A stretch of DNA of 64,000 nt, from positions 1 through 64,000 of the forward strand of contig NZ_AJQE01000289.1 in the NCBI RefSeq assembly GCF_000261685.1, read 5' to 3'. The DNA is from Bradyrhizobium genomosp. I (2014). GTDB taxonomy: Bacteria; Pseudomonadota; Alphaproteobacteria; Rhizobiales; Xanthobacteraceae. A program made the translations under genes and the position numbers. Shown piece after piece: positions 9,924-61,908 of this stretch. Each line of letters begins with the position of its first letter. The stretch's first letter is position 1. The notes below the pieces were generated by a model. It was given only the letters and a program-made list of their open reading frames with translations, did no database searches and was not told where the DNA came from.

Positions 9924-9946
9924 GGGCGAGCCTGCGTGCGCTGCTG

Positions 9947-10828: not shown

Positions 10829-11002
10829 GGCTAGCGCTTAGCAGGCAAGCGCGGCCGGCTCCACCTCGGCTGGCGCATGCGGGTCATCACGGAGCAAGGA
10901 ACCCGAAGCGGCCGTGCCCGTTCAGAGTCAACGGCATGCGCGCTCGCATGCACGTTCCACCGAACGCGTTCGCCGGCCGCAAATCGAAACAGGGGAAGAC
11001 CC

Positions 11003-11224: not shown

Positions 11225-11299
11225 CGCGGCGGGCGCATCGCGGCGATCCGGCACCGGCGCGCGAAAGGCCGGCCCGTTCGCGCATCACGTTGCGCCGCA

Positions 11300-12264: not shown

Positions 12265-12268
<4 letters not shown>
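11300..12268 (-). CDS. Peptide ABC transporter ATP-binding protein (OppF/DppF type)
   Basis: The 322-residue ATPase has Walker [10 protein letters not shown] at 49-57, the SGGQRQR signature, Walker [13 protein letters not shown], and the C-terminal oligopeptide-transporter tail containing [14 protein letters not shown]. That cysteine pattern is typical of OppF/DppF and may hold an iron-sulfur cluster. It is last in a minus-strand operon and overlaps the stop of the OppD-type gene by four bases, implying translational coupling. It energises di/oligopeptide or related uptake at the inner membrane. Confidence 0.93.
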
Positions 12269-13259
<991 letters not shown>

Positions 13260-13260
<1 letters not shown>

Positions 13261-15102: not shown

Positions 15103-15131
15103 CAGGGAGAGATCCTCTCAGCGGCAGTCTC

Positions 15132-16922: not shown

Positions 16923-17184
16923 GGTTGTCCCCCGTCTGGTTTCCCATCGTGATGAAGACGGCCGACAAAGACGGCCGCCCATTTGGCTGGCAGTAGATGG
17001 CACACCGAATGGGGGGCGCGTCAACTGGGACCGTATGTATGCAAACGGTCTTCTGGCTGTCTGTTGGGCAAAATTGCGTTCCGCAGCCCATCCGCTCGGC
17101 AATCCAGCATCAAAACATGCCCGATTGCACGCTGCACTGCGGAAAATTTGTTCGCCGCATCAGACGAAGTATCGAGGTGAAATT

Positions 17185-18603
17185 CTACGCCACGGACATG
17201 TCGAGCGGCGGCGCGACGTGATCCGGCAGCGGACAGACGTAAGGCGTCTTGGCCGTCCGCCTTTGAAGGTCCGCCTTGGCAGCCTTGATCAGTTCCGGTT
17301 CCGTCAACGCCTTGATGCCGAGACCGGCCATCGCCTTGGCCGCCTGCACCATGGCCTTGTGGGCGTGCGGGCTCTTGCCTTGCGCCACCACCTGCCAGGT
17401 GTGGAAGGGCGTGCCGATTGCAACCGTCGGCGCGTGAACCTGCACGGTCGGCACCACCCAGCTCACGTCGCCGACATCGGTCGAGCCGACCAGCGGGTTG
17501 CGCTTGGCATCGAGCGGCACCAGGAAGTCGGCCAGCGGCCGATCGGTCGGCTCCATGCCGATCGCATAATAGACCGACGAGATGTCCTTGTCGCTCAGCG
17601 TCGCACGGATCTGGCTTGCAAAGCTCTTGTCCGCATCGTCGAAATGCGGCGGTCCGAGTTCTTCCATCACCTGGTGCAGCGCCTGTTCCAGCGGCGCGTT
17701 CGGCAGGATGTTGGAGACCGCGGAGATGATCTTCATCTCGACCTTGGTCTCGGTCATCAACGCGGCGCCCTGAGCGATCTTGGACACGCGCTCGACCAGC
17801 TCGTTCATGCCGGGAAGATCACGGGCGCGGATCGAATAGCGCACGCGCGCGTGGGCCTGCACCACGTTGGGGGCGATGCCGCCGGTGTCGAGCAGCGCGT
17901 AATGCACGCGCGCGTCGCTCGGCATGTGCTCGCGCATGTAGTTCACGCCGACGTTCATCAATTCCACCGCGTCGAGTGCGGAGCGACCGAGATGCGGCGA
18001 GGCAGCCGCATGCGAGGTACGGCCGGTGAAGATGAAATCCGCGCGCGTGTTGGCGAGCGACGGCGTCACCGCGACTTCCCAGAAGCTGTGCGGATGCCAG
18101 GTGATGGCGATGTCGGCGTCCTCGAACGCGCCGGAGCGCACCATGAAGGCCTTTGCCGCGCCGCCTTCCTCCGCTGGGCAGCCGTAGTAGCGCACGCGGC
18201 CGGGCACCTTGGTCTCGGCCAGCCAGTCCTTCACAGCGGTCGCGGCGAGCAGCGCGGCGGAACCGAGCAGATTGTGACCGCAGCCATGGCCATGGCCGCC
18301 GGTCTCGATCGGGCGATGCTCGGCGACACCCGCCTCCTGGCTGAGGCCGGGCAGCGCGTCATATTCCCCCATGAAGGCGATGACCGGACCGCCCTCGCCC
18401 CATTCCCCCATCACCGCGGTCGGGATGCCGGCAACGTTCTCGGTGATACGGAATCCCTGATGGCGCAGCTCGGCGAGATGCTCGGCCGCGGACCGCGCCT
18501 CGGTGTAGCAGACCTCGGGCATGCCCCAGACCCTGTCGCTGAGGTCGATGAAACGTGTCTTGATCGTGTCGACGCCACGCCAGATGTCGCTGCGGTTGTC
18601 CAT
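17185..18603 (-). CDS. M20-family amidohydrolase, AbgB-like
   Basis: The 472-residue protein has the M20 metallopeptidase metal site (GEYDALPGLSQEAG and GGHGHGCGHNLLG) and the acid EEGGAAK near residue 160. Its best family match is the aminobenzoyl-glutamate hydrolase B branch, which hydrolyses N-acyl amino-acid or dipeptide-like amides. It is on the same strand and 262 bases upstream of the peptide-binding protein gene. A plausible pathway is uptake by the transporter followed by cytoplasmic hydrolysis here. That gap is long enough for a separate promoter. Confidence 0.9.
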   Translation of the reverse strand: MDNRSDIWRGVDTIKTRFIDLSDRVWGMPEVCYTEARSAAEHLAELRHQGFRITENVAGIPTAVMGEWGEGGPVIAFMGEYDALPGLSQEAGVAEHRPIETGGHGHGCGHNLLGSAALLAATAVKDWLAETKVPGRVRYYGCPAEEGGAAKAFMVRSGAFEDADIAITWHPHSFWEVAVTPSLANTRADFIFTGRTSHAAASPHLGRSALDAVELMNVGVNYMREHMPSDARVHYALLDTGGIAPNVVQAHARVRYSIRARDLPGMNELVERVSKIAQGAALMTETKVEMKIISAVSNILPNAPLEQALHQVMEELGPPHFDDADKSFASQIRATLSDKDISSVYYAIGMEPTDRPLADFLVPLDAKRNPLVGSTDVGDVSWVVPTVQVHAPTVAIGTPFHTWQVVAQGKSPHAHKAMVQAAKAMAGLGIKALTEPELIKAAKADLQRRTAKTPYVCPLPDHVAPPLDMSVA

Positions 18604-18880
18604 GCTTCGGTCCGTGATCCCTGGTCAAACGAAGCGGGAATGGTTAGCAGCTTCGGCATGCGGCGCCTAGCATCCGGCCGGACAGCAGCCATGCGGCCGG
18701 TGCCGGATCGCGCGCGCCCGCCTTCTGTGCACGAGGCGCCTTTCGAAGATTTCACGCGGCGTTCTCAGGAATAGTTGGGAACGAGGCTTTCAAGACGGCC
18801 TGCTCCGGCCTAAATTATGTGTGCTTCGCGCTTCGTTCCGCTGGCCATGCCGGAGCGATGCTCTCAGCCAGGAGAACTCC

Positions 18881-19852
18881 ATGCCCGCTCTGACCGAATG
18901 GAGAGTGCCGCCGGCGAACCAGCCGCGGGCGAGCGACTACGGCTTCGATCTCGACCGCGCGCTCGGCTCCGTCGTCGGCCTCCACGCCATCGTCCCGCCG
19001 GACGCCTTCAGCGCCGAGACGCTTGGCACCGAGCGCGCCGGCAATGGCGTCGTGATCGACGACGGGCTGGTGCTCACGATAGGTTATCTCATCACTGAGG
19101 CAGAGTCGGTCTGGCTGCACCGGGCCGACGGACGCGTCGTGGAGGGTCATGCACTCGGCTTCGATTCCGAAACCGGGTTCGGGCTGGTGCAGGCGCTCGG
19201 CCAGCTCGACGTCGCGCCGCTGCCGCTCGGCTCGTCGGCGGCGACCCGGATCGGCGACCGCGTCGTGGTCGGCGGCGCCGGCGGGCGCACGCGATCGGTC
19301 GCGAGCCAGATCGTGGCCAAGCAGGAATTCGCCGGCTACTGGGAATATCTGCTGGATGAGGCCGTGTTCACCTGTCCCGCTCACCCGAACTGGGGCGGCA
19401 CGGCGCTGCTCAACGAACGCGGAGAGTTGATCGGCATCGGCTCGCTCCAGCTCGAGCGCGAACGTGACGGCAAGGCCGAGCACGTCAACATGATCGTGCC
19501 CATCGACCTCTTGAAGCCGATCCTTGAGGACTTGCGCAAGTTCGGCCGCGTCAACAAGCCGGCACGGCCCTGGCTCGGGCTCTACTCCACCGAGATCGAT
19601 AACCGCGTGGTGGTGATCGGAATCTCCGCCAACGGCCCGGCCGCCCGCGCCGAGCTCAAGACCGGCGATGTCATCCTCGCCGTGGACGGCGACAAGGTCA
19701 CGAGCCAAACCGCCTTCTACAGGAAGATGTGGGAGCTCGGCGCCGCCGGCGTCGACGTGCCGCTCACCGTGCATCACGAAGGCGTCACCTTCGACGTCAC
19801 GGTGACCTCGACCGATCGCTTCAAGCTCCTGAAGGCGCCGAAGCTGCACTGA
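18881..19852 (+). CDS. Trypsin-fold S1C (DegP-like) protein with PDZ domain, catalytic triad lost
   Basis: ATG 18881 follows an AGGAGA site and gives 323 residues. The N-terminal half aligns with HtrA/DegP proteases and a PDZ domain follows at about 228-312 (RPWLGLYSTEIDNRVVVIGI). All three triad positions differ from the active-enzyme pattern. TAAH is TIGYLI (Y69), the D of DLAVLK is replaced in SETGFGLVQ (G99), and GNSGG is PNWGG (W171). No signal peptide is seen. It is probably a pseudoprotease acting as a binding or scaffold protein, and it sits directly before an esterase gene. Confidence 0.82.
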   Translation: MPALTEWRVPPANQPRASDYGFDLDRALGSVVGLHAIVPPDAFSAETLGTERAGNGVVIDDGLVLTIGYLITEAESVWLHRADGRVVEGHALGFDSETGFGLVQALGQLDVAPLPLGSSAATRIGDRVVVGGAGGRTRSVASQIVAKQEFAGYWEYLLDEAVFTCPAHPNWGGTALLNERGELIGIGSLQLERERDGKAEHVNMIVPIDLLKPILEDLRKFGRVNKPARPWLGLYSTEIDNRVVVIGISANGPAARAELKTGDVILAVDGDKVTSQTAFYRKMWELGAAGVDVPLTVHHEGVTFDVTVTSTDRFKLLKAPKLH

Positions 19853-19876
19853 TCCCAAGGCTTGAGGACGCGGGCG

Positions 19877-20947
19877 ATGACCGAGGCCGTGGTGGACGAC
19901 ATCGTGGCCGTGCTGCCGCCGCTGCTCGATGCGCTGGAAGCGCTCGGCTTCTTCCAGCGGCATCTGCACCCGCCGGCCTTCGCCTCGGTCATGAACGCGA
20001 TCGGCGCGCCCGACGAGGCGCTGCAAGCGGCACGAGCCGCGATCGGCGATTGGCCAGAACAGTTCGCCGGCCTGCGCGAGCGGCTCGATCGCGCCTGCGA
20101 CGAGACCCTCGCCGCCTTTGCCGGCATCCGCGAGGTCGAGCGCGGCAATGGCGATCTCGTCGCCGTCTTCCGTGCCCTGCGCCATGTCCCGCGCGCGCAG
20201 GAGGCGCTCTATCCACTGGCGGTGCAGTTTCCACCCGTGAGCAGCTTCTTTCTCAACGCCGCCAATCGCGAGAATCACGATCTGCTGTCGCGACTGGACG
20301 TCGGCGCGAGCGAGCACGCCGGCATCTTCCACGATCACAATGAGCCCGGCAGCCGCGGCGGCTTCTCGGTCTATGTACCGGAATATTACATGCCCGACCG
20401 GGCAATGCCGCTGGTGATGGCGCTGCATGGCGGCAGCGGCAACGGACGCGGTTTTCTGTGGAGCTGGCTGCGTGACGCGCGCAGTCTCGGCGCGATCCTT
20501 GTGGCGCCGACCGCGACCGGCCCGACCTGGGCGCTGATGGGCAACGACACCGACACGCCGAACCTCATGCGTATCCTCGATACGGTGCGCGACCGCTGGA
20601 GCATCGATGCCTCGCGCATGCTGCTGACCGGCATGAGCGACGGCGGCACCTTCTGCTACGTCACCGGGCTCGACGGCGCCTCGCCCTTCACCCACCTCGC
20701 GCCCGTTGCTGCGACCTTCCATCCGCTGATGGCGGAAATGGCGGACGCGAGGCGCCTGCAAGGCCTGCCGGTCTTCATGACTCACGGCAAGCTCGACTGG
20801 ATGTTTCCGGTGCAGACCGCACGGCAGACGCAGGCGGCGCTCGCCGCCGCCGGCGCCAAAGTCACCTATCGCGAGATCGACGACCTCAGCCACACCTATC
20901 CGCGCGAGATCAATGCGGAATTGCTGCAATGGCTGAATGGAGAATGA
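19877..20947 (+). CDS. Alpha/beta hydrolase, PHB-depolymerase/esterase-like
   Basis: The 356-residue protein has a 150-residue helical N-terminal extension followed by an alpha/beta hydrolase core. The nucleophile elbow is GMSDGG (S254), and the oxyanion region is MALHGGSGNG. The likely acid and base are D306 in GKLDWMF and H339 in DLSHTYP. This layout fits the LpqC/polyhydroxybutyrate-depolymerase-like esterases. It begins 24 bases after the pseudoprotease stop, so the two are likely co-transcribed. No signal peptide is evident and the substrate is unknown. Confidence 0.82.
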   Translation: MTEAVVDDIVAVLPPLLDALEALGFFQRHLHPPAFASVMNAIGAPDEALQAARAAIGDWPEQFAGLRERLDRACDETLAAFAGIREVERGNGDLVAVFRALRHVPRAQEALYPLAVQFPPVSSFFLNAANRENHDLLSRLDVGASEHAGIFHDHNEPGSRGGFSVYVPEYYMPDRAMPLVMALHGGSGNGRGFLWSWLRDARSLGAILVAPTATGPTWALMGNDTDTPNLMRILDTVRDRWSIDASRMLLTGMSDGGTFCYVTGLDGASPFTHLAPVAATFHPLMAEMADARRLQGLPVFMTHGKLDWMFPVQTARQTQAALAAAGAKVTYREIDDLSHTYPREINAELLQWLNGE

Positions 20948-27741: not shown

Positions 27742-27826
27742 GCCCCTGTGGCGGAACTGGTAGACGCGCTCGACTCAAAATCGAGTTCCGCAAGGAGTGC
27801 TGGTTCGATTCCGGCCAGGGGCACCA
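27742..27826 (+). tRNA. tRNA-Leu (anticodon CAA)
   Basis: The 85-base cloverleaf has acceptor stem GCCCCTG/CAGGGGC, D-arm GCGGAACTGGTAGACGCGC, and an anticodon stem CTCGA/TCGAG around loop CTCAAAA giving anticodon CAA. It also has a long variable arm and T-arm CTGGTTCGATTCCGG, and CCA is encoded at 27824-27826. It reads UUG leucine codons. The recombinase gene follows in the same orientation, so its 3' end is the likely integration site. Confidence 0.95.
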
Positions 27827-28036
27827 ACTAGGCTGTTCACGCCCGTTCTAAAGCCTCCGCAACCGTCCGCGCAGTGCTCGGAAGCCCTTGAAAAATAGGC
27901 TCTTCCGCGTACATCGGTGTCCGTCACCGTTTGTTCTCGTCCGATCTCAGCCGCCGGATTTGCTGGTATTTTTGCTGGTATCGGAGAACAAACGTTCACG
28001 GTGACCTTCGCTTTTCCGAACGAAGGAATTGAGCAG

Positions 28037-29407
28037 ATGGCCGGCAAGAACTACGGCGCGTACGCCAACCCCAAGCAGATCAAGACCGACATCGATTGCC
28101 GCGCCGCCCGACCTAAATTCGACAATGGCGCGTGGAGACCCGCCAAGATTTCCGACGTGACCGGCGGCTGGCTCTATCTCTTTGTCACGCCGGACGTGAG
28201 CAGGCCTGGCAACGCTGCCTCCAAGCTCTGGCGGATGGACTACCGTTTGCACGGCCGGCAGAAAACCTACTCCATCGGCCCCTACGGCAATGGCAAGGAT
28301 GGCACGTTCTCGCTCGCAGACGCGCGGCGCGAGCGCGACAAGGCCAAAGACTTGCTCAAGGATGGCAAAGACCCGAGCATCGAGAAGCAGCTGGACAAGC
28401 ACAGGCAGGCCGCCGCCCGACCTTTCGGGCAATGGGCCGATGAGTGGCTGGCGAAGAAGAAGGTCGAGAAAGTCAAACGCGGCAGGATTGTCGCGGTGCG
28501 AGACCCCAAGACCATCGAGGTGCTCGAACTGCGCGTTGGCTACGTCAAGGCGCGCTTCGGTAAACTCAGCAGACAGGACATCAAGCGTCCAGACGTGCTC
28601 GCTTTCATGCGTTCATATGAAGCCGACGGAAAGCTGGAAACCCGCGACCGCGTGCGCAGCATCGGTGAGCAAATCTGTGATTATGCTGATGTTGAAGGCG
28701 ACGGCTACAATCCATTCCGTAACCTGAATGGGCAGATGATTGCCAACATTTCGACCCCGCGTCCCGGTGTCACCGAACCACGTGATGTGACGCGCGTCTT
28801 CAAACTCATTAGCGCACCGTGGACCAGAGCGAGGTTTGGAGACGTTGTTGGCCTTGCCTTGCGCTTCGACGCACTGACCATTCCCCGCCCTGGCATGGTC
28901 AATGAAATGGAGTGGAGCGAGGTCGATTGGAATACACAACGCTGGACTGTTCCAGCCGCCAAGATGAAGACCGGTTGGGACCATGTCGTGCCCCTGTCAC
29001 GGCAGGCACTTGCAATCTTGCGCAGCGTTCATAAGCTGACCGGCCATCGCCGCTACGCGTTTTCCTGCTCGAAGGATGCGCCTCTATCAAACAACACGCT
29101 CAACAAACGCTTGCGGCTGCTTGGCATCGACACCAAGACTGATCATTGTGCCCACGGATTTCGGACCACCTTCTCGACTTTGTCTCACCACGAAGAGATC
29201 AAGGACGCGAAGGCATGGGATGGTGATGTCGTCGAGTTGCAGCTTGCGCATCTAGATAACTCCACTGTGGAAGGTCTGTACAAAAGGCACGGACCGCTCG
29301 CGCTGATCGGCTCGCGCACGAAGCTGATGCAGCATTGGGCTGATCGGATCGACGACTGGCTCGATCCCAAGAAGGTGACGCCGATAAAGCGCGACAGGCA
29401 AACCTGA
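28037..29407 (+). CDS. Tyrosine recombinase (P4-type island integrase)
   Basis: ATG 28037 has GAAGGA nine bases upstream; the frame is open back to 27917. The 456-residue product has an N-terminal DUF4102-like arm domain (MDYRLHGRQKTYSIGPYG), a core-binding domain at about 125-235 and a catalytic domain. Probable active-site residues are R284, K309 or K311, H373/R376 in HGFRTTFS, H405 in LQLAHLD and Y415 in VEGLYKRH. It lies 210 bases downstream of tRNA-Leu(CAA) and probably integrated the island there. It appears intact. Confidence 0.9.
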   Translation: MAGKNYGAYANPKQIKTDIDCRAARPKFDNGAWRPAKISDVTGGWLYLFVTPDVSRPGNAASKLWRMDYRLHGRQKTYSIGPYGNGKDGTFSLADARRERDKAKDLLKDGKDPSIEKQLDKHRQAAARPFGQWADEWLAKKKVEKVKRGRIVAVRDPKTIEVLELRVGYVKARFGKLSRQDIKRPDVLAFMRSYEADGKLETRDRVRSIGEQICDYADVEGDGYNPFRNLNGQMIANISTPRPGVTEPRDVTRVFKLISAPWTRARFGDVVGLALRFDALTIPRPGMVNEMEWSEVDWNTQRWTVPAAKMKTGWDHVVPLSRQALAILRSVHKLTGHRRYAFSCSKDAPLSNNTLNKRLRLLGIDTKTDHCAHGFRTTFSTLSHHEEIKDAKAWDGDVVELQLAHLDNSTVEGLYKRHGPLALIGSRTKLMQHWADRIDDWLDPKKVTPIKRDRQT

Positions 29408-29920: not shown

Positions 29921-30218
29921 TGGTTCGATCCAACTAGGCTGTTCAAGCCCGTTCTAAAGCGTCCGCAACCGTTCGCACGGCGCTCGGACGCCCTTGAAAC
30001 GTAGTAGGTTCCGCGTACACGGGCGTTCACCGCCGTCAGTTCTCATCCGATCTCAGCCGGCCGATGTGTTGGTATTTTTGTTGGTATCGTGTTGGTATCG
30101 GAAGAACAAACGTTCACGCTGGCTTTCGCGATTCCGAACGAGGGAATTGAGCAAATGGCCCGCAAGAATGGTGGTGCGCGCGCCGCCTCCTGATTAAAAC
30201 CGATGTCGACTGCCGAGA
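29921..30218 (+). repeat. Degenerate duplicate of the tRNA-Leu 3' edge and integrase leader
   Basis: TGGTTCGAT (T-loop) is followed directly by CCAACTAGGCTGTTCA, which continues as an imperfect copy of 27824 to about 28104. It includes the leader GCCCGTTCTAAAGC, the GGTATTTTTG block and the start of the integrase. Relative to the intact tRNA region, the bases between the T-loop and CCA are missing. I read this as a relic attachment site plus the leader of a second related integrase. Confidence 0.8.
30155..30218 (+). pseudogene. 5' remnant of a second integrase gene
   Basis: The sequence from ATG 30155 (MARKNGGARAAS, then stop) aligns with the first residues of the intact integrase (MAGKNYGAYAN). 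After a small deletion the DNA still matches the ACCGACATCGATTGCCG part of that gene up to about 30218, where similarity ends. Only about 20 codons remain, so the gene is dead. Confidence 0.75.
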
Positions 30219-38967: not shown

Positions 38968-39693
38968 TCACGCCGCACGGATGGCGGCGAGGAAGTTCCG
39001 CGTTCGCGGGTGTGATGGAGCGGTGAAGAACTCTGTCGGCGACGCTCGCTCGAGAACTTTTCCTTCAGCCATGAACCAAACCTTGTCCGCAACCTCGCGG
39101 GCAAAACCCATCTCGTGAGTGACGCAGACCATGGTCATACCGTCCCGAGCCAAGCCTTTCATCACAGCCAGAACCTCGCCGACCATCTCGGGATCTAGCG
39201 CGCTCGTCGGTTCGTCGAACAACATGACGGGCGGCTCCATAGCGAGCGCACGGGCGATCGCGACGCGTTGCTGCTGGCCACCAGACAGTTGGGAGGGGTA
39301 CCGGTCTGCCAACGACCCTAGCCCGACTCTATTCAAAAGGTGGAGAGCTCTCTCTCGCGCCTCGCGCTTAGGCCATTTTCCAAGCAATACGGGCGCGAGT
39401 GTCACATTGCGGAGCGCCGAGATGTGCGGGAATAAGTTGAACTGCTGGAAAACGAAGCCGATCCTCGCGCGCAACCGGTTTTGACATTCATCGCGGACAT
39501 CGACACCTTCTACCTTAATCGTGCCCTTGTCGATCGCTTCAAGGCGATTCACCGTGCGGATCAGTGTCGACTTGCCTGAGCCGGAAGGGCCGCACAGAAC
39601 CACGACTTCACTGCGCGCGACTTCACCATCGATCCCGCGTAGAGCCAGGTAACCCCCATAGCGCTTCTCAACGCCGCTGAACTGGATCATCAA
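38968..39693 (-). CDS. Polar amino-acid ABC transporter ATP-binding protein
   Basis: The 241-residue PAAT-family ATPase has Walker [10 protein letters not shown] (34-42), [12 protein letters not shown]-loop, signature LSGGQQQR and Walker [13 protein letters not shown]. It is close in sequence to the ATPase half of the unusual fusion protein at 44639-46375, which suggests that both could serve the same permeases. The gene overlaps the permease gene before it by four bases (ATGA). Confidence 0.93.
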
Positions 39694-40418
39694 ATAGCCT
39701 CCGCGATTGCCACGACCGCCGCACTGCCCGTCGACCCGGACCGGATCCGAGCGATTTTGCTTTCGAGAAACTGCGATAGTCGGCTGAGCGCGAAACAGAG
39801 AACAAAATAGGCGGCCGCCAGCAGTGCATATACTTCCAGTGGCTGGGTAAGCAGTTGGGCGTTGATCTGGTTTGCTGAAAACGTCAGTTCGTGGACACCA
39901 ACAAGCGAAGCTAAGGAAGTGTCCTTCACCAAAATGATGAATTGGTTGACCATACTGGGCAGGCAGCTCACCAGCACCTGCGGGAGTACGACATAGGTCG
40001 AGGTGCTCCAGTATCCGAGGCCGAGCGAACGGGAGGCCTCGACCTGCCCTCGAGGCAGCGCCTCAAGCGCCCCACGGATAGCTTCACCGAGATAAGCGCC
40101 TTCATAAGCAACCAGGGCGCAGATGACCGTAACGGTCGCCGACGTTCCGACTCCAGTGACGAGAGGCACCACAAAATAAGCCCAGAAGATCAACAGCAAA
40201 AGGGGCACGCCCCGGACGAAATAGACATATACGGCAGCCAGACGGCGAACGGCCGCGATCGGTGATGTCCGCGCCATTGCTACCCCGACTGCGAAGGGGA
40301 AGGCGCACAGCAGCGCCACCGCGGACATCACGACCGTAAGGGCGATTCCGCCAAGCGGTCCGTGCGGAAACTGGCCTATGAGGAGCGAGGTGCCGAAGCG
40401 GGAGAGAATGTCGATCAT
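39690..40418 (-). CDS. Amino-acid ABC transporter permease (HisM/GlnP type)
   Basis: The 242-residue inner-membrane protein has the family EAA loop [21 protein letters not shown] and about five transmembrane helices. It overlaps both neighbouring genes by four bases, forming a coupled permease-permease-ATPase set. It pairs with the second permease to form the pore. Confidence 0.92.
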
Positions 40419-41107
40419 CTGCTATCGGCTCCCGTTGCAACGAGGCGCCGCTGCATCCGCTCACCTCCGAACATGATCGCAAGGGTGCAGCAAAGATACA
40501 TAATGGTCGGCACGAGGAATGCGGCAAAAGTCGCGTATGTTTGGCCGTCGATGCGCCGAGCGACGTACATCAGTTCTCCCACACCGATTGCCATCGCCAG
40601 TGTGGTCGCCTTGAAGAGACTTAAGGTCTGGCTGACGAGCGCGGGAAAGCAAGCCCGAACAGCCTGCGGTAGCAGGACAAGTCGAAGCGCTTGGAACCGG
40701 GATAGGCCGAGAGCTTCGGTGGCTTCGAACTGTCCCTTCGGCAAGGTGCGGAAGCCGCTGCGAAGATCCTCGGAAATGTAAGCTGCCGCGTTCAGGCTGA
40801 GCGCCACAATGGCGAACACGAATCCATCCAGATTCTGCTCGATCCAACCCCGCAATATTGCAGGTAGGACCTGCGGGACCGCGAAATACCAAACCAGCAA
40901 CTGGACCAGGCTGGGCACGTTACGGTGATATTCGACAAAGCCGATGACTAGAGGCGCGGCCCAGCGATTCGATTGGCGCAAGGCTGTGAGCGCCGCGCCG
41001 AACCCGAACCCGAGGATCGCCGCGAACACAAAGAGCTCTGCCGTCAAGCGCAAGCCGGTGGCGAAGAGGCGCCAAATATCCGCCTGCTCGAGGATCGCGA
41101 ACGTCAT
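40415..41107 (-). CDS. Amino-acid ABC transporter permease (HisM/GlnP type)
   Basis: The 230-residue permease has LRSGFRTLPKGQFEATEALGLSRFQALRLV as the EAA loop and the PQVLPAILRGWIEQNLDGFVFA segment typical of the HisMQ family. It is the first of the two permease genes, 21 bases after the solute-binding protein gene. Together they import an amino acid across the inner membrane. Confidence 0.92.
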   Translation of the reverse strand: MTFAILEQADIWRLFATGLRLTAELFVFAAILGFGFGAALTALRQSNRWAAPLVIGFVEYHRNVPSLVQLLVWYFAVPQVLPAILRGWIEQNLDGFVFAIVALSLNAAAYISEDLRSGFRTLPKGQFEATEALGLSRFQALRLVLLPQAVRACFPALVSQTLSLFKATTLAMAIGVGELMYVARRIDGQTYATFAAFLVPTIMYLCCTLAIMFGGERMQRRLVATGADSR

Positions 41108-41128
41108 TAGGCTAATCCCTGCGCAGGC

Positions 41129-41947
41129 TTAGGGCTGGTTCTCGAATTCAGCGAGCGGCGTCAGCTTCTTCTCACGCGTCAATTTGTACTCCGTGCCGTC
41201 GCCGAACCACTTGTCCCAGATCGTCTGCAACTGGCCAGATTTTTCCATTTCGCCCAATCCGGCATTCACGGCATCAAGAAGCGCTGTTTCCCCCAGCTTG
41301 ATGCCGATGCAATCCGGCTCCCAGTGCAGCACTTCAGCGAGAAAGCGGACCTTGCGTTCCGAGCGATTTCGGAACCCGATGCCGGCGCCTTGTGAAATCG
41401 CCATTGCTTGCACCTTATGCTGCTGCAGGGCCAGATAAGCGAGAGGGCCATCGTCGAAGGTGACGATCTCGGACTCTGGCAGTTTCTGACGAGCGAAAAG
41501 CTCCGGCGTAGACCCGCGGATCGCGCTAACCTTCTTGCCGCGGAGATCGTTGAAGCCCTCGATACCGGAATCGGATAGTACAAGGACGGGTATCGGCACC
41601 TGAATATAGGCGGCGGAAAAAGCTATCTGCTTCGCACGTTCCGAGGTATAGCCCATAGCAGCAGCTACAACATCAACGCGGTCTGTTTGCAGTGAAGGAA
41701 CGCGCGCGGCAACGGACAGCGTGTTCAGTTCAAGTTTGACGTGCAGGCTGTCGGCCACGCCTTTGCAGACATCGACATCAAAACCGACGAGTGTGCGCGT
41801 CTTTGGATCCTCAAACCCGAGCGGCACAAGATCCCCGAACACCCCGCACACGAGCGTGCCGCGTGCCCTTATATCATCAAGGCGTGCGGCGTGAGCGACT
41901 TCTATGCAGCCGACGGCGATGATCAGTCCTGCGAATACGGCTTTCAT
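41129..41947 (-). CDS. Periplasmic amino-acid-binding protein (SBP_bac_3)
   Basis: ATG 41947 with GAGGAG upstream gives 272 residues with a signal peptide (AVFAGLIIAVGCIEVAHA). The family 3 fold is recognisable from RGTLVCGVFGDLVPLGFEDPKT through GFDVDVCKGVADSL to the closing LQTIWDKWFGDG. It captures a polar or acidic amino acid and delivers it to the permeases next in the operon. The aminotransferase gene lies directly upstream, 35 bases away. Confidence 0.92.
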   Translation of the reverse strand: MKAVFAGLIIAVGCIEVAHAARLDDIRARGTLVCGVFGDLVPLGFEDPKTRTLVGFDVDVCKGVADSLHVKLELNTLSVAARVPSLQTDRVDVVAAAMGYTSERAKQIAFSAAYIQVPIPVLVLSDSGIEGFNDLRGKKVSAIRGSTPELFARQKLPESEIVTFDDGPLAYLALQQHKVQAMAISQGAGIGFRNRSERKVRFLAEVLHWEPDCIGIKLGETALLDAVNAGLGEMEKSGQLQTIWDKWFGDGTEYKLTREKKLTPLAEFENQP

Positions 41948-41982
41948 CGTGCATCTCCTCTGTGACATTATTGGGAATGCGG

Positions 41983-43179
41983 TCAGCGCAGAACCGCGCA
42001 AGCTTGCAGAACCCGGTCGATCGCCTTCTCAACGGTCTCGGTTTTGGGGGTGAAGGAGAGTCGGAATGCCGGCGGCGAGCCGTAGGCTGCCCCCTGCACG
42101 CCAGCGACTCCGTATTCGAGCAGATGGATGACGAAGTCACTATCGGTTTGGATGGTGGATCCGTGCGGCGTTCTCTTTCCCATCTGTGCTTCGCAAGAGA
42201 CGTACACGTAGAATGCACCCTGCGGGGATGGGCAACGCAGCCCGTGTCGTCCGTCGAGGCGAGACACCAACAGGTCGCGCCTTATTCGGTACTCAGCGAT
42301 CCAATTCGGAAGAAAGTCGAGCGGACCGTTCAACGCGGCCAGAGCCGCTGCCTGGCTGACCGAGGCAGGATTGCCGCTGTTTTGTGATTGCATCTTCTCC
42401 ATTGCCCTGATCAAGGACTTGGGACCCGCGCAATAGCCGATGCGCCAGCCAGTCATGGCGTATGTCTTCGAGACACCGTTGATGGTCAGCGTGCGATCGG
42501 CAAGATCGGGGTTGGCTTTGGCGAAAGTTGTGAAGGGCGCCTCGTCATAGCGCAGATGCTCGTAGATATCGTCTGTGAGGACGTGGATCTGCGGGTTGGC
42601 TTCGATGACCGCGCCAATCGCCTGCAACTCGTCCTCGTCGTAGGTGGCGCCGGTTGGATTATTGGGCGAGTTCAGGATTAGCCATTTGGTTCGTGGCGTG
42701 ATGGCTTCCTGCAATTGTGTAGGCGTAACCTTGAAGCCTGCCCGATAGTTTGTCTCGATGAATACCGGCTTTGCGCCGTTTAGGCGCACGATGTCCGGAT
42801 AGGAGACCCAGTACGGAGCTGGCACGATGACTTCGTCGCCGGGCTGCACTGAGCAAGTGAGCGCGTTGAAGATGACCTGCTTGGCTCCCGCCCCGACGGA
42901 GACCTCAGAGGGATCGACGCGCAGGCCGTTCTCACGCCAGAACTTCGCGCAGATGGCCTCCTTGAGGGCCCGGGTGCCATCTACGGCCGTGTAGCGCGTC
43001 TGGCCGTCCAACATGGCGCGGTGCGCAGCTTCAACAATATGAGGAGGGGTTGCGAACTCGGGCTCGCCGCCAGCCATATTGCAAACGTCGCGGCCGCTCG
43101 AAATGAGGTCGCGCGCGCGGCTCAGCGCGCCGATGCTGGGCGATGGCTGGATGAGGTTCAACCTATCGGCGAGTAACAC
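41983..43179 (-). CDS. Class I/II PLP-dependent aminotransferase (aspartate aminotransferase-like)
   Basis: GTG 43179 was chosen because GGGAGG lies seven bases upstream and the family N-terminus (LLADRLNLIQPSPSI) starts there; an upstream ATG at 43242 adds an unrelated leader. The 398-residue product has the PLP lysine K238 in GVSKTYAMTGWRIGY, SPNNPTG at 171-177 and the conserved R in AFRLSF. It transfers an amino group from the imported amino acid to a 2-oxo acid. It heads the operon and is divergent from a LysR gene. Confidence 0.9.
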   Translation of the reverse strand: MLLADRLNLIQPSPSIGALSRARDLISSGRDVCNMAGGEPEFATPPHIVEAAHRAMLDGQTRYTAVDGTRALKEAICAKFWRENGLRVDPSEVSVGAGAKQVIFNALTCSVQPGDEVIVPAPYWVSYPDIVRLNGAKPVFIETNYRAGFKVTPTQLQEAITPRTKWLILNSPNNPTGATYDEDELQAIGAVIEANPQIHVLTDDIYEHLRYDEAPFTTFAKANPDLADRTLTINGVSKTYAMTGWRIGYCAGPKSLIRAMEKMQSQNSGNPASVSQAAALAALNGPLDFLPNWIAEYRIRRDLLVSRLDGRHGLRCPSPQGAFYVYVSCEAQMGKRTPHGSTIQTDSDFVIHLLEYGVAGVQGAAYGSPPAFRLSFTPKTETVEKAIDRVLQACAVLR

Positions 43180-43250
43180 GAGGATTCCTCCCTTCTCTCT
43201 TGAAACGGGACATTGATGCGAGCGGGTTTGAAACTGACTCATTTCGTTGT

Positions 43251-43265: not shown

Positions 43266-43335
43266 TTACCGATCATGAGAGTTTCCATTTCGGCATGTGA
43301 CGCCAGGCCAAGGGTCCAATCGTCGGGAGGTCAGA

Positions 43336-44238
43336 ATGTTCTCGCTAAGACAAATCGAAGGGTTCTACTGGTCTGCCGAATTGTCCGGGCTCGAGCGAGC
43401 AGCGCGTCATCTCAACACCACGCAGTCCGCGATATCCAAACGGATCCAAGAACTCGAGGAAGCGTTAGGAGTGAAGTTGTTTGAGCGCAACGGACGACGG
43501 ATGCGCCTCACGCAAACCGGAGAACGCTTGCTACTGCTCGCGCGCGAAATGCTCGTACTACGAACGCGCGTCATCGACCTGGGGAAGACATCAGTCGTCG
43601 CTCCGAAGGTACTTCGCGTTGGTGTGACCGAACTCACGGCCATGACTTGGCTACACGCACTCACTGAGCGGGCAAAAACGCTCTCGACGTCCGTTGTTAT
43701 CGAACCTGTCGTTGGCGCGAGCGCGGAGCTCGTGGCCGCCGTGGAGCATGACCGGTTAGATATGGCGGTCGTTCCTGATGCCTTCCACAATCCGACGCTC
43801 CAGGTTCAGTCGCTGGGTGCCGTCGACTACGCATGGATGTGTCGGCCGGGTTACGTCGAAGTGGCCCGCACACTCTCGCTTAAAGAACTTATGAACTATA
43901 CGATCATCGACCAGGCGCACGCTTCAGGACTCGGCGACATCATTCGTCGCTGGCTTTCCGAGCGGCGAATTGAGATCACGAATTCCCTGCCAAGCAGCAG
44001 CCTGTCAGCAATTGCGGCTCTTACGGTGGCAGGACACGGCGTCAGCTATCTACCGAGACACATGTTCGAGCCGATGATTGCGACCGGACGGCTATGCGTT
44101 ATTGATACCAAGCCGCGACTCCCTCGAGTACCGTATGTCGTACTCGGAAAACGAGTTCGCGACGACGACATCCAAGCATCCGTCATGTCGCTCGTCAGCG
44201 AGACAGCCGATTTCGCGGCTGGGTGCGTCCTCTTTTGA
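43336..44238 (+). CDS. LysR-family regulator, divergent from the amino-acid operon
   Basis: ATG 43336 follows GGGAGG at the proper distance and gives 300 residues. The winged HTH is RQIEGFYWSAELSGLERAARHLNTTQSAISKRIQELEE (5-42), followed by a LysR substrate-binding domain. It is divergent from the aminotransferase-transporter-aldolase operon and probably activates it in response to the amino acid or its oxo acid. Confidence 0.9.
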   Translation: MFSLRQIEGFYWSAELSGLERAARHLNTTQSAISKRIQELEEALGVKLFERNGRRMRLTQTGERLLLLAREMLVLRTRVIDLGKTSVVAPKVLRVGVTELTAMTWLHALTERAKTLSTSVVIEPVVGASAELVAAVEHDRLDMAVVPDAFHNPTLQVQSLGAVDYAWMCRPGYVEVARTLSLKELMNYTIIDQAHASGLGDIIRRWLSERRIEITNSLPSSSLSAIAALTVAGHGVSYLPRHMFEPMIATGRLCVIDTKPRLPRVPYVVLGKRVRDDDIQASVMSLVSETADFAAGCVLF

Positions 44239-44638
44239 CCGACGGAAGACGACACGCCCCGGGCTCCAAGGCCAGACGGTCATCGATGTAACTGGCTGGA
44301 TACGGGCAGCGGAGCAGTATCGAATGGTTGTTGGACGACTGCCCTGTCGCTACGTGTTGATCTGCGTTCACGAGGTTGAATACCGCCACCATTGGCGGAA
44401 AAAAACCGCCGCCCAGAGCGCGGCGTCGCTGAATCGCAGCCAGTCAGGGAGGAACGGGCGATTTATCTTGTTGAGCGATGAACCGTTGCTTTTATTGGAC
44501 AGCCTCATCGCGACCCATCAACCTGATGACTCGTTGTTGGCCCATCGACTATGCGGAGCGGGATTTAGCTGATCTTTTGGCGGTTGAGTTCGCTAACTGA
44601 CTTGTCGAAGCGTAACGGCGCGTCTTCGCGTACGGGGC
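44239..44638. other. Gene-free stretch between convergent genes
   Basis: I find no recognisable gene. An open frame continues from the LysR shadow to 44572 but lacks family content. A mutually exclusive hairpin set occurs around 44383-44410 (CCGCCA/TGGCGG, then GGCGG/CCGCC across seven A residues), of unknown role. Confidence 0.4.
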
Positions 44639-46375
44639 TCAACGCGGCCATTCAAGGGAGTCGACCGCGTTCGGGCGGTCTTCCGTTAGAGTTTGGATGA
44701 AGGCGTCGATCTGCCCATTGAGACTGGCGAACAGCTTGTCCAAGGCAAGACCATCCGACAGGACCTCACCAGTTGTGCGACCGGCGTCAGCGGTATGTGC
44801 AGCGACGTTGGCGAGGCTTTTAGTGACTGATCTGGTTGCATTAACTGCAGCGGTGGCCCTCTCTGCGATCACTCTTGTTGTGGCGCTTTGTTGCTCAACT
44901 GCTGTCGCTATGGCCCCGACGCTCTCTTCGGTATGCTGCGTCAAGTCTGACACCGACTGCATCTTTTCAATAGCGCGTTTCGCAGCTTCCTGGATACCGT
45001 CGGTTTGTTGCTTGATTGCTTCGATTGCGGCGGCGGTCTGCTTAGCGAGTTCCTTGACCTCGGAGGCAACTACCCCAAAGCCTTTCCCGAGGTTGCCGGC
45101 TCGCGATGCCTCAATTGTCGCGTTTAGCGCAAGCAAATCTGTTTGAGCAGCGATCTTATGAATGAGGGACAGAATATCTCCGATACTCCTTATCCGAGAG
45201 TCTAACGTATTGATCGCCGCATTCGTTTGCTGACACGTCCTATTTGCGGCCGCGGCAAATTGGGCCGTTTCATTTGCGTGCAGAGAGATAGATGCAATCG
45301 AAGCCGACAGTTCCGCGGTCGCAGATGAAACAACCTCGACACTTTCGACGGTTTCATCGGTTCTATTCACCATCTGCTGTCGTTGCTGATCCACATCGTC
45401 CATCTGGCTTTTCATCGTCTCAATGCGCTTCAATATCTGCGTGGCGGCATCAGAAGCCTCCTCCGTTACGCGCCCCACGGTTTTGCGGAAGCGATGCAAC
45501 GTTGTCTCGAGCAGCCGCCTGCGCGCTTCGTCCTTCTCCTTGTTCACCTGGCCGACAAATGCCCGGACCCGGCTGTGCCTGGGATTGCTGAAGAACTCCG
45601 CCGGAGGATTGACCTCAATGATTTCGCCCGACTCCATGAAAACAATGCGATCTGCAACCTCACGCGCGAAGCTCATTTCGTGGGTCACACAGAGCATTGT
45701 TACGCCCCCGGATTTCGCTAAAGAGACCATCACGTCGAGCACCTCCTTGGTCATTTCCGGATCAAGCGCAGATGTGGGTTCATCGAATAGCAGAACCTTG
45801 GGTTTCATAACGAGAGATCGCGCTATCGCAGCCCGCTGCTGCTGTCCTCCAGACAGCGACCCCGGGTATTTGCCCGCTTGCTCCGAGATACGCACTTTTT
45901 CGAGATAAGACATTGCTAAATCGTCCGCGTCTGACTTCGATATCCGGCGAACTTTCAACAAAGGAAGGGTGCAGTTCTGAAGAACAGTCAGATGTGGGAA
46001 CAGATTGAACTGCTGGAACACCATTCCGACTTCACGACGCACTTTATCCACTTGGCCTTGTTCGTCGGTAAGTTCGATTCCCTCAACGATAATTTTTCCC
46101 TGCTGATGTCTCTCGAGCCCGTTAATGCAACGAATAAGTGTTGATTTTCCCGAACCTGACGGACCGGCGATTGCGACTCGCTCGCCTTCCGAGACGCACA
46201 GATCCACTTTACGCAATACCTGGAGAGTTCCAAACCATTTGCTGACGTCAGTCAGCCGAAGCGAGAAACGTTTCTTAACGTCGCCTGGATTATCGATCAT
46301 TTCCATCCCTGCGGCCGACATCTGCAAATTCGATCGGCCCGCAGGCAACTTGTCGTCCGTCGAAATAGCCGTCAA
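44639..46375 (-). CDS. Fusion of an amino-acid ABC ATPase with a cytoplasmic chemoreceptor signalling domain
   Basis: A single 578-codon frame holds a complete PAAT-type ATPase and then an MCP domain. ATPase motifs are Walker [10 protein letters not shown] at 71-79, Q-loop Q121, signature LSGGQQQR from 174, Walker B LLFDEP at 195-200 and H-loop H232. A charged helical linker (about 278-340) follows. The MCP hairpin tip is [20 protein letters not shown] at 408-427, then KGFGVVASEVKELA. There is no transmembrane segment, HAMP domain or CheR-binding pentapeptide (it ends SLEWPR). The continuity and key residues suggest both halves work. I infer a transporter-linked chemosensory input; the ATPase could dock on the permeases encoded at 39690-41107. 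Confidence 0.9.
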   Translation of the reverse strand: MTAISTDDKLPAGRSNLQMSAAGMEMIDNPGDVKKRFSLRLTDVSKWFGTLQVLRKVDLCVSEGERVAIAGPSGSGKSTLIRCINGLERHQQGKIIVEGIELTDEQGQVDKVRREVGMVFQQFNLFPHLTVLQNCTLPLLKVRRISKSDADDLAMSYLEKVRISEQAGKYPGSLSGGQQQRAAIARSLVMKPKVLLFDEPTSALDPEMTKEVLDVMVSLAKSGGVTMLCVTHEMSFAREVADRIVFMESGEIIEVNPPAEFFSNPRHSRVRAFVGQVNKEKDEARRRLLETTLHRFRKTVGRVTEEASDAATQILKRIETMKSQMDDVDQQRQQMVNRTDETVESVEVVSSATAELSASIASISLHANETAQFAAAANRTCQQTNAAINTLDSRIRSIGDILSLIHKIAAQTDLLALNATIEASRAGNLGKGFGVVASEVKELAKQTAAAIEAIKQQTDGIQEAAKRAIEKMQSVSDLTQHTEESVGAIATAVEQQSATTRVIAERATAAVNATRSVTKSLANVAAHTADAGRTTGEVLSDGLALDKLFASLNGQIDAFIQTLTEDRPNAVDSLEWPR

Positions 46376-46706: not shown

Positions 46707-47468
46707 ATGCCGATTCTGGGACATACGGTAGATCGCGGATTGCATCGCGTATTTCAGAACTTTATCGACCGCTTGTCGGCGGCAGACGATCTTGGGGATT
46801 TTTCTAGAGTCATCGCGGACACCGCGACCGCTTTGGATCTATCCTGTTTCGCCTATCTCGCTCTCCAACCCTCAAGGGATGACAAGCCGCGTCTAATCTC
46901 AACATATCCTTCGCGATGGACGACACATTACTTGCGCAATAAATACCAAACTGTCGACCCCGTTATTGGAGAGGCGCTTCAGAGTCCCGAGCCGTTCCGA
47001 TGGGGAATTGATTTGTCATCGAGATCCGCCTCGATGGCGGAGCGACAACTTCTCGATGAAGCCGCCCAATTCGGAATCCGATTTGGCTTTACTGTTCCCA
47101 TTCACGATGGGCACGGTCCAGTCGCCGCACTAACGTTTGCCGCTGACGAGAGACGGCCGCAATTCGAACAGTTCATTGATTCGCACGCGCGCGTTCTTCA
47201 GCTTATGGCAATGTACTTCCATGCCCACGTCCGCCGCAAGTTCGCGAACGAGCGAAGTGTCGGTGGAGTACGCATGTCTCCTCGCGAGCTTGAATGCTTG
47301 GAATGGGCTTCGCGAGGGAAAAGCGCTTGGGAGATTGGATGCATCCTCGGCATTTCGCGCAACACCGTTGCATACTATTTAGAGAACGCAAAAGAAAAGC
47401 TTGGAGTTCGGACTGTTGTGCAAGCGGTGACGCGCCTAGCCGCTGCAAATAAAGAAGAGCGAAATTAG
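46707..47468 (+). CDS. LuxR-family autoinducer-binding regulator
   Basis: The 253-residue protein has an N-terminal acyl-homoserine-lactone-binding domain with the conserved W71, Y75, D84, P85 and W99 (YPSRWTTHY to FRWGID). A C-terminal LuxR HTH follows at about 190-240 (MSPRELECLEWASRGKSAWEIGCILGISRNTVAYYLENAKEKLGV). It is 84 bases upstream of a luxI gene on the same strand. By analogy with rhizobial symbiosis islands and Ti plasmids, it probably controls transfer genes in a density-dependent way. Confidence 0.93.
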   Translation: MPILGHTVDRGLHRVFQNFIDRLSAADDLGDFSRVIADTATALDLSCFAYLALQPSRDDKPRLISTYPSRWTTHYLRNKYQTVDPVIGEALQSPEPFRWGIDLSSRSASMAERQLLDEAAQFGIRFGFTVPIHDGHGPVAALTFAADERRPQFEQFIDSHARVLQLMAMYFHAHVRRKFANERSVGGVRMSPRELECLEWASRGKSAWEIGCILGISRNTVAYYLENAKEKLGVRTVVQAVTRLAAANKEERN

Positions 47469-47475
47469 GACACGC

Positions 47476-47494
47476 ACCCCCTACAACTACAGGT
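47476..47494 (+). promoter_or_regulatory. Lux-box-like element upstream of the autoinducer synthase
   Basis: ACCCCCTACAACTACAGGT lies 59 bases before the luxI ATG. Its right half (CTACAGGT) and left edge (ACC) match the lux box pattern, but the left half is degenerate. It is a plausible site for the adjacent LuxR protein. Confidence 0.4.
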
Positions 47495-47552
47495 GATGAA
47501 TTAGATCAAAAATCCCGATCAAAGGAGGTGGCACCACTTTCCTGGAGGGACC

Positions 47553-48185
47553 ATGATTCAGCTCATCACACAATCTTCTTATGGGGAATTTTCCGACACT
47601 CTCGTTGAGATGTATCGCCTGCGGCATCGTGTTTTCAAGCTCCGCATGGGATGGGACGTTCAAACTAGCGGCGACATGGAGATCGACGATTTCGATGCAC
47701 TGCACCCCGCCTACCTAGCGCAACTATGTGAAAGCGGCCAAGTGCAAGGTTCCGTTCGCCTGCTTCCCACGCTTGGCCCGACCATGCTTCGCGACACCTT
47801 TCCCGCGCTTCTTGAAGGCCAACCCGCGCCGTCAACTCCTCAGGTTTGGGAAAGTAGTAGATTCGCAATCGATGTTGCTGCCGACGCTCCAAAAGGGGAT
47901 CACCGCATCACTCGTGCCGCTTACGAGCTGTTTGCGGGAATGGTCGAGTTCGGGCTTTCACGGCAGCTCACCGATATCGTTACCGTCACCGATGTCCGAA
48001 TGGAAAGAATCCTTCGACGCGCCGGCTGGCCCCTGCGACGCATTGGCAATCCTTCCACGGTTGGCAATACTTTGGCCGTGGCGGGTTACCTTGCAATTTC
48101 GAGTGAGATTCTCTCCAACCTTCGCAAGGCTGGCGGCCTTTCGATGCCGGCTCTTTGGACGCCAGTAATTTTCGCGGCCGCCTAG
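47553..48185 (+). CDS. Acyl-homoserine-lactone synthase (LuxI family)
   Basis: The 210-residue enzyme shows all invariant family residues: R24, F28 and W34 near the start, D45/D48, R69, F83, and E100 with R103 in VWESSRFAID. It makes an acyl-homoserine lactone from S-adenosylmethionine and an acyl-ACP or acyl-CoA. The acyl group cannot be read from sequence. GGAGGG precedes the ATG. It is probably under positive feedback from the upstream LuxR protein. Confidence 0.94.
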   Translation: MIQLITQSSYGEFSDTLVEMYRLRHRVFKLRMGWDVQTSGDMEIDDFDALHPAYLAQLCESGQVQGSVRLLPTLGPTMLRDTFPALLEGQPAPSTPQVWESSRFAIDVAADAPKGDHRITRAAYELFAGMVEFGLSRQLTDIVTVTDVRMERILRRAGWPLRRIGNPSTVGNTLAVAGYLAISSEILSNLRKAGGLSMPALWTPVIFAAA

Positions 48186-59799: not shown

Positions 59800-61908
59800 T
59801 CACCCAGCTCGGATATGGGCGAGGAATGCGGCAACCTGGCTTTCCAGTGACGCGGAATGGCGCGCTAGAACAGCGGCAGCTTCAGCCATGGAGGACGCTT
59901 CGAGGCCCGCCTCTACAGCCGCGTCACTAACTTCAGAAATAGTTTCCGAGACGGCCTGCGTTCGGCGGGCTGCACCGTCAACGTTGCCAGCAATTTCACG
60001 AGTCGCTGCTTCTTGCTGTTTGACGGAGGCCGAAACGTTGGTCGTGATGTCATCGATCTTGGCAATCATCGAACCTACCCCGCTGATTGCCACTTCGGCG
60101 CGGCTCGTTGCGCCTTGAATGGCGGTGACCTGGCCACCGATTTCTTCGGTTGCCTGCGCAGTTTGCTCCGCAAGTGCCTTCACTTCCGAGGCCACAATGC
60201 TAAAACCTTTGCCGGCATCTCCCGCACGAGACGCCTCGATGGTGGCGTTCAGTGCCAAGAGATTGGTCTGGTTTGCGATCTGATCAATAAGAGCGACCAC
60301 TTGGCCGATCTTCTCGGCGGTTTTCGCCAATGCGCGCATCTCGACATTCACACGCTCGGCTTCTTCTACGGCCTTCCCGGTCTCGTGACTGGCCGCTGTA
60401 ACTTGGCGTCCAATTTCGGAAACCGAATTTGCCATTTGCTCGGTCGCAGCGGCAACCGCCGAGACGCGTTCTGATGCACCCGTCGCCTCGGCCCCAACGT
60501 TGGTTGCGCGCTCTCGCGCAACGGATGTTCGGTTCATAAGAGTGTCGGCGGCTCTGGTCATTTGCGCCGCGGACTGTGAAACCGCAGAAACGACACTCCC
60601 CACTGTTTCCTCAAATTGTTGCGCGAGCGCCATCAGAGTCGCACGTCGAGTTCCTTCGGCTTCGTCGCGAATTCGGTCCTGCTCCTGTCGCAGCGTCTTG
60701 GTCTCGTTTAGGCTTTTTTTGAAGACCTGAACTGTGCGCGCCATATCGCCGATCTCGTCTCCGCGATCGGTTCCCGTAACCTCACTGTTCAGATCGCCAT
60801 CCACCAAACGCACCATGACCCGACGCAGGCCTTCGAGGGGACGGGTAATTTCGTTTCGAACAATCAGCCAAGTCAGCAACAGCCCCAGAAGCGCGCCACC
60901 GCAAGCCAGCAGTATTAGCATCCGGCGATTGGACGCGTAGTCCACCTGGGCTTGAGCAAGGTCGGCATGCATCGCCTCCCTGGTCTCATCCAACCAGGAA
61001 CGAGCGGCTGCTTCAGCCGCATCGAGGGCGACCTTGCCTCGCGTGTTGCCCATCTGCTGTGCGCGTCCATCGCCATTTTCACGGGCCAGACGCTGAATCT
61101 CCTTGTCGACACTCAACCAATGCTCGAAGCCGTCGTCGACATCATTGAGTTGGTCTACAAGTTGCGGAGGAGCGAGTTGAGAGCTTGCGAACTGACGGAT
61201 CGAGTTCCGCAAGCCGGTGATCCGCTCTGAGACTTCGTCCAATGCTTTGCTTAGTCTTTCAAGACGGTTGTCGTCGATCTCGGCAACCGTGTCCTTCTCG
61301 AGCGCATAAAAGCGATTCAGTTCAGTCAGGAGTTGCTGGCCGGCTCGGACCATGCGCTGCGCGAAGGCGTTACGCTCAGCCTCGGCTACCTTGGTGATGT
61401 CCGCAACCATGCTGGTGACCAGCTTTTCGAGTTTGTCGAAGCTTTCGCCACCTTCGGTCGCCGACAGCTGGAACGCTCTTGATTTCGAGTTGAGCTTTGC
61501 CAATTGGCTCATTTCGTCAGCGACGCCGATATAGGCCACGGTCAGCTCGAGGAATTTGTCCAAGCGTTGAGACTGACCTGCCGTCGGCGTCTGCTGCAGC
61601 GCCGTTTTTATATCGGCAAGTTCGGCCTTTCTGGCCTCGATCTCGGCGATGGCCGCCGTCTTCCCGGCATCTGTACGCTCGATCACGAGGTCGCGCGCGG
61701 CACGGGATATCTTGACCAAGGTGACAATTGCATCTTGCGCCAGACCAGTCTGGCGAATTGGGCCCGCTGCCAGCACCTCGAGCCTGGCGTTCTGAGCGGC
61801 GAGCTGCTTGAGCGAAAAGACGATGACGGCAACGATTGTTAGCGCCAGAAGACCGATAGCGACACCTAACTTGAGCGACAGACGCAGATTGCGGAAGATG
61901 GCTGACAT
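59800..61908 (-). CDS. Membrane-bound methyl-accepting chemotaxis protein
   Basis: The 702-residue receptor has a first transmembrane helix (about 13-35), a large periplasmic helical sensor domain, and a second helix (about 328-350, [20 protein letters not shown]). A HAMP domain follows ([22 protein letters not shown]), then a signalling domain with hairpin tip [20 protein letters not shown]. It should report a periplasmic ligand to CheA/CheW. No chemotaxis kinase genes are present in this window. The coupled small ORF follows it. Confidence 0.92.

Follow-up and report, generated by a model that had tools for sequence, protein, structure and literature searches.

ABC ATPases work as ATP-driven dimers and chemoreceptors function as dimers too, and transport machinery that reports to a signaling protein is represented by the Amt-histidine kinases, whose output is a histidine kinase. 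Soluble chemoreceptors with cytoplasmic input modules are themselves known. According to one survey (PMC11109136), transport machinery likewise reports to a signaling protein with histidine kinase output in BceAB-S and CbrA, and MCP domains occur fused to an ECF S-component-like 5TMR membrane fold. The gene described here resembles these 5TMR-MCP proteins (PMC11109136) in joining a transporter-related fold to an MCP domain, but the fold there is a membrane fold and not an ATPase motor; unlike in BceAB-S, where the parts are separate proteins, both parts are encoded in a single chain. An initial sequence-only reading had stated that known transporter-linked taxis uses separate proteins, which the reported 5TMR-MCP fusions make somewhat too broad; what stands is that our literature search found no fusion of an ABC ATPase with an MCP domain. 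The gene was found in a 64,000-nucleotide stretch of a Bradyrhizobium genome, hereafter the window.

A gene fusion in one open reading frame

The features of the gene are as follows, with residues numbered on the fusion protein.

44639-46375, minus strand: fusion gene (ABC ATPase plus MCP signaling domain), 578 amino acids; one open frame, with Pfam ABC_tran and MCPsignal above their cut-offs
46265-46375, minus: N-terminal extension, residues 1-37; start codon uncertain
45545-46264, minus: ABC ATPase part of polar amino acid importer type, residues 38-277; GlnQ/EhuA-type models match best
46142-46165, minus: Walker A, residues 71-78 (motif reading)
45842-45856, minus: ABC signature LSGGQ, residues 174-178 (motif reading)
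45773-45793, minus: Walker B and catalytic glutamate, residues 195-201 (motif reading)
45521-45556, minus: join, approximately residues 274-285 (match ends and AlphaFold)
44687-45520, minus: complete receptor cytoplasmic hairpin, residues 286-563 (alignment to receptor segments and Pfam)
45095-45154, minus: receptor tip, residues 408-427 (alignment and motif reading)
44407-44425, minus: terminator-like hairpin and T run, 214 bp past the stop; weak, with 3 such sites in 3 kb against 3.2 expected by chance

The 578 codons contain no internal stop, none lying between the halves, and the protein matches Pfam ABC_tran at residues 54-202 (133 bits, E 1.4e-38, model positions 1-137 of 137) and MCPsignal at residues 367-525 (94.2 bits, E 1.1e-26, model positions 4-169 of 172). 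This is a real protein-coding gene fusion, and the single uninterrupted frame with both Pfam domains bears out the original proposal that ATPase and chemoreceptor domain share one protein. Pfam returned no HAMP match in the protein and hydropathy revealed no membrane helix: the 19-residue maximum is 1.58 in the whole protein and 1.08 in the part starting at residue 268, as against 2.71 in a membrane receptor of the same window. The hairpin, present at full length, was thus correctly described as lacking both membrane segment and HAMP. Translation may begin at a TTG at 46375 (the start as listed) or at an in-frame ATG at residue 19, 24 or 26, none of which is preceded by an obvious ribosome site by eye; residues 1-29 are modeled with low confidence by AlphaFold (mean pLDDT of the whole protein 77.9, pTM 0.53). 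The promoter scan gave no sigma-70-like promoter for the gene (2.0 expected by chance).

An assembly or sequencing artefact joining two genes is highly improbable. The genome is a draft in 508 contigs and is the only one found to carry the fusion, but the gene is internal to a contig of 77,010 bases and a 501-bp junction probe had one full match in the genome, with only two partial ATPase matches elsewhere (70-71%). The genome contains no near copy of either half; the best among the matches listed are 64% for the ATPase (contig C342) and 39% for the receptor. The single-copy junction, together with a GC3 of 0.59 in both halves, makes an assembly chimera unlikely. On one flank of the fusion gene, the genes for the neighboring importer and the aminotransferase have GC3 values of 0.65-0.72; on the opposite flank, LuxR, LuxI and the second LysR gene have 0.54-0.57. 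Compared with plasmids, the receptor half reached up to 46% identity over 55% of its length.

The two halves and their join

The ATPase half is intact. Besides the motifs listed above, a Q-loop (residues 120-123), D-loop (202-206) and H-loop (230-233) are present, where the motif names, including that of the receptor tip, are our own assignments to positions in the fusion protein. With ABC_tran complete and the motif set present, the earlier description of an intact PAAT-type ATPase with all nucleotide-binding motifs was confirmed. All 37 columns invariant among 35 compared ATPases are kept, as are 84 of the 86 columns conserved at 90%, and AlphaFold models residues 41 to 270 in blocks at 90-98 pLDDT. 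The best PDB relative is TTHA1159 (4u00), 57% identical with a TM-score of 0.97 normalised by that chain, and it is closely matched in the stretch holding the Q-loop and FNLFPH, which we take to be the part meeting the permease in importers. In sequence and fold the half groups with amino-acid importer ATPases; the best NCBIfam model is GlnQ at 295 of 379 bits, and the score lies below the cut-off of every model among the best 25 of 198 matched. Its sister in trees is the ATPase of a Mesorhizobium plasmid importer operon (support 98/90 with 40 rows and 85/87 with 29 rows), although many branches were unresolved in both trees and bootstrap values had not settled. What the protein shares with the PAAT importer ATPases (GlnQ, EhuA, ArtP, HisP and TTHA1159) is the whole ATPase part, whereas it differs from them in bearing a receptor tail of about 300 residues and in having no permease gene directly beside it.

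The two halves meet with little or no extra sequence between them. When the whole protein was compared with the fetched loci, ATPase matches of at least 55% identity ended at residue 277 in 85 of 88 cases and at 278 in the other 3, and receptor matches started at residues 274-291 in 27 of 32 cases and earlier, at 227-269, in the remaining 5 (L022 and L046, both counted among the 32, cover one and the same place). HAMP extends to residue 401 in the window's membrane receptor, where fusion residue 286 aligns near residue 422, as judged from match coordinates. The "helical linker" of the sequence-only reading is instead the receptor's own segment downstream of HAMP, since the boundaries of the ATPase and receptor matches meet. 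AlphaFold places the join within a single continuous helix, residues 268-338, with blocks across 271-330 at pLDDT 83-93 and then 56.

Across 195-278 residues, 20 of 31 receptor segments aligned to the receptor half with neither sequence gapped, so the half keeps its length and register; identities across the 31 were 23 to 39%, in a comparison whose query began at residue 286 and which left out rows with a stop, rows spanning less than about 180 residues and near copies. An MCPsignal domain with an antiparallel hairpin and a conserved tip was found, the tip being presumably the CheA/CheW contact region. The hairpin is that of alphaproteobacterial membrane chemoreceptors (sensor-HAMP-MCP), with the ATPase in place of sensor, membrane helices and HAMP. 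One such receptor, of ordinary membrane type (4HB, HAMP, MCP), is encoded in the window itself at 59800-61908, beyond an ArdC and a ParB-like gene.

The receptor half has diverged in sequence. It scored lowest of 26 rows, keeping 50 of the 68 columns conserved at 90%, and the substitutions at conserved positions include E354A, E362S, E502V and N413D. The last of these lies within the otherwise mostly kept tip, and residue 428 is N where most rows have E. E355 and an EQQ stretch are retained and the methylation-helix region has its full length; some of the changed and kept glutamates are presumably methylation sites. AlphaFold confidence over residues 341-560 is only pLDDT 44-77. Within its own genome (22 rows, taking in 21 of the 23 other MCP matches) the half ranked fourth or fifth from the bottom, according to the threshold chosen, and it is an outlier no more so than the che-cluster receptors, since these (L167-L169) scored lower.

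These observations bear on the reading that the fusion is neutral or decaying, a short-lived chance joining on a mobile element with no role in chemotaxis, whose ATPase half may still serve an importer. Occurrence in a single genome and the 18 altered receptor columns speak for it, and so does a degenerate MCP on the same contig outside the window (C289:74594-75163), a receptor-like stretch with three internal stops. The receptor half, on the other hand, carries no stop or frameshift despite only 30-39% identity to 15 receptors, its tip is mostly kept, and three receptors from this genome's che cluster have even lower scores. On balance we regard neutrality or decay as fairly unlikely.

Distribution, unfused relatives and mobile setting

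A second fusion was not found in the sets searched. The whole protein (E <= 1e-130) matched one of 195 genus genomes, the source genome itself, and residues 190-578 (E <= 1e-47) again matched the source genome alone, whether among 397 genomes of the order set, 265 of the genus or 289 each of the class and phylum sets, these sets overlapping one another. Residues 245-578 (E <= 1e-40) matched 23 of 391 family genomes, the 22 others at 34-38% identity, and the fetched loci of those 22 held no open reading frame with both halves. The three E limits are such that distant, independently formed fusions would be missed. Among open reading frames of at least 150 amino acids in 178 loci, both halves coincided only in five copies of the source locus; seven loci from IMG/VR all contained the ATPase only; no record among the 5000 best-scoring plasmids covered 80% of the fusion protein; and the contig-wide scan of genomes, which took the best 80 of 594 confirmed stretches and was not exhaustive, is to be read with that scope. 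A Thalassospira locus (L125) initially taken as a long fusion match proved to be two separate ABC genes. The literature, genome and plasmid searches yielded no other example of the fused architecture, in line with the sequence-only reading, which knew of no described one. Within the searches made, the ABC ATPase-MCP architecture is new, and since no other genome searched holds a second copy there is no comparative sign of selection on it.

Unfused counterparts do lie side by side elsewhere. Plasmid pTM3 of Tistrella mobilis (L022) encodes, on the same strand, a permease, a PAAT ATPase at 3025-3777 and then a PAS-PAS-MCP protein at 3964-5484. That protein is a soluble chemoreceptor which, like the fusion, has a cytoplasmic input on an MCP hairpin and has a PAAT ATPase gene directly upstream, but there the genes are two and the input is PAS. 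On plasmids of Azospirillum lipoferum 4B and A. oryzae a binding protein, two permeases, an ATPase, a response regulator and a HAMP-MCP are found as annotated, while the stretch examined in A. ramasamyi contains a response regulator and a binding protein without a receptor. On plasmid p5 of Rhizobium leguminosarum GLR17, a PAAT operon is preceded by a membrane receptor gene. A receptor followed the ATPase in 3 of 10 plasmid records inspected, which is no unbiased count because Tistrella and R. leguminosarum were picked for matching both halves. Such neighboring genes show how a fusion could arise. On A. lipoferum AZO_p4 (9000-20000) the importer genes run on one strand into the response regulator, the HAMP-MCP and another binding protein, perhaps forming a transport-taxis operon of separate proteins.

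The surroundings of the fusion gene contain the following.

27742-29407, plus strand: tRNA-Leu(CAA) at 27742-27826 and tyrosine integrase at 27917-29407; likely element end
38968-42001, minus: amino-acid importer, with ATPase 38968-39693, permeases 39690-40418 and 40415-41107, and binding protein 41129-42001 (profile matches)
41983-43242, minus: aspartate-transaminase-like aminotransferase (below equivalog cut-off)
43297-44238, plus: LysR-type regulator, convergent with the fusion gene (Pfam)
46707-48185, plus: LuxR/TraR-like regulator at 46707-47468 and TraI-like AHL synthase at 47553-48185 (profile matches)

The tRNA-Leu(CAA), the tyrosine integrase, the TraR-, TraI- and TrbI-like genes, the ParB-like gene (below its Pfam cut-off) and ArdC suggest that the fusion gene is cargo of an integrative conjugative element of tra/trb type. 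The cargo around it comprises the amino-acid importer, the aminotransferase, a glutamate-dehydrogenase-like gene and regulators. Within the TraR-like gene lies the point where DNA common to genus relatives starts, 46741 in the best-matching rows and 46808-47188 in 11 loci, so that the fusion gene sits immediately beyond this common backbone. Two relatives were followed for 18-19 kb upstream of their TraR-like gene and lack the fusion there. The TraR/TraI-like quorum-sensing pair at the edge of the shared DNA is approximately 77-83% identical in the 11 loci compared. A 16-bp direct repeat begins in the last bases of the tRNA-Leu(CAA) (27824-27839) and recurs past the integrase gene (29930-29945); it is att-like, perhaps reflecting a nested or multi-part integrative element.

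Proposed function and candidate partners

We propose that the protein is a soluble chemoreceptor that takes its input from a nucleotide-binding domain docking on an importer, a reading to which we give a probability of roughly 0.45. An importer ATPase has replaced what in ordinary alphaproteobacterial chemoreceptors are the sensor, the membrane part and HAMP. Two ATPase halves would dimerize in the manner of other ABC importers, probably beneath a permease for polar amino acids. By closing and opening with ATP they would alter how far apart or how twisted the two helices entering the receptor hairpin are, as HAMP does, and the hairpin would then tune the CheA/CheW pathway of the host, so that uptake, or the importer's nucleotide state, would become a chemotactic signal. 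The intact frame, the complete motifs, the mostly gapless hairpin, the predicted continuous helix and the genomic CheA/CheW cluster are consistent with this mechanism, and the anatomy is best read with the ATPase as sensor; expression, dimer geometry, permease docking, coupling to CheA and any effect on swimming are inferred. Against it stand occurrence in one genome, divergence and low model confidence in the receptor half, the lack of a sigma-70-like site in the scan and the fact that the nearby permeases have their own ATPase. The bolder form, in which importer motor and chemoreceptor are one, with a pair of ATPase-MCP chains forming the importer's nucleotide-binding dimer and one receptor dimer and each transport cycle being read into CheA without contact between binding protein and receptor, is possible though rather doubtful.

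The fusion is a single gene between the LysR and TraR-like genes, not encoded with permeases and a binding protein. The sequence-only reading had it borrowing the permeases 4-5 kb away, whose ATPase was described as closely similar; this proved weak, as that ATPase is only 51% identical to the fused one, which has its sister in the Mesorhizobium plasmid importer. For the same reason, derivation of the fused ATPase from the neighboring importer was rejected, no sister relation appearing in the trees. The genome contains 13 PAAT permease matches on 8 contigs. No ATPase was found with those on C264 or C453, either in the 8,000 of 9,420 bases of C264 and all 3,153 of C453 that were inspected or, among the matches listed, in the genome ATPase search (150 of 279 candidates scored). 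C453 is uninformative, since it ends 126 bp past its second permease. The pair at C264:383-2748 (L179), presumably AapQ/AapM-like, is 47% and, over 213 residues, 54% identical to the C342 pair; downstream of it an opposite-strand open reading frame stands in place of the ATPase gene that directly follows in 5 of 5 annotated relatives. As a partner this orphan pair is possible but unsupported, since the fused ATPase falls outside the clade formed by the ATPases of its relatives. The window pair and the AapQM-like C264 pair are the candidates, neither backed by the ATPase tree.

The absence of a permease gene directly beside the fusion gene, the separate ATPase of the neighboring permeases and the intact ATPase motifs would also suit a permease-free sensor of energy or nucleotides, dimerizing on ATP in the cytoplasm and reporting ATP/ADP to CheA like soluble energy-taxis receptors with other inputs. 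The stretch close to TTHA1159, with its presumed permease-contacting role, would be needless in such a protein, and we consider this reading unlikely. Very unlikely is a working importer ATPase whose tail only anchors the importer to the polar receptor array: the intact ATPase motifs and the hairpin with most of its tip would fit, yet an anchor has no need of a whole hairpin, and this one is present at full length, with some conserved glutamates changed.

Within the searches made, the novelty lies in the input module of what is most likely a soluble chemoreceptor. Under the docking reading preferred here, the protein would bear on a difficulty, that sensing of flux and of ligand are hard to separate where binding, transport and metabolism are coupled; a receptor with an importer motor as its only input could be probed with point mutants that bind ATP but do not hydrolyze it. 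A functional fusion would also give the receptor hairpin an input module of a new kind. A non-functional one would still exemplify how mobile elements make new signaling proteins by joining kinds of genes that are adjacent elsewhere.

CheW domains occur at four places in the genome, all in one cluster, in which both CheA and CheW were confirmed. In this only che cluster found (L147, C29:10000-28000), three receptor matches are regularly spaced and two CheW matches have the same score, a pattern suggestive of a repeated unit.
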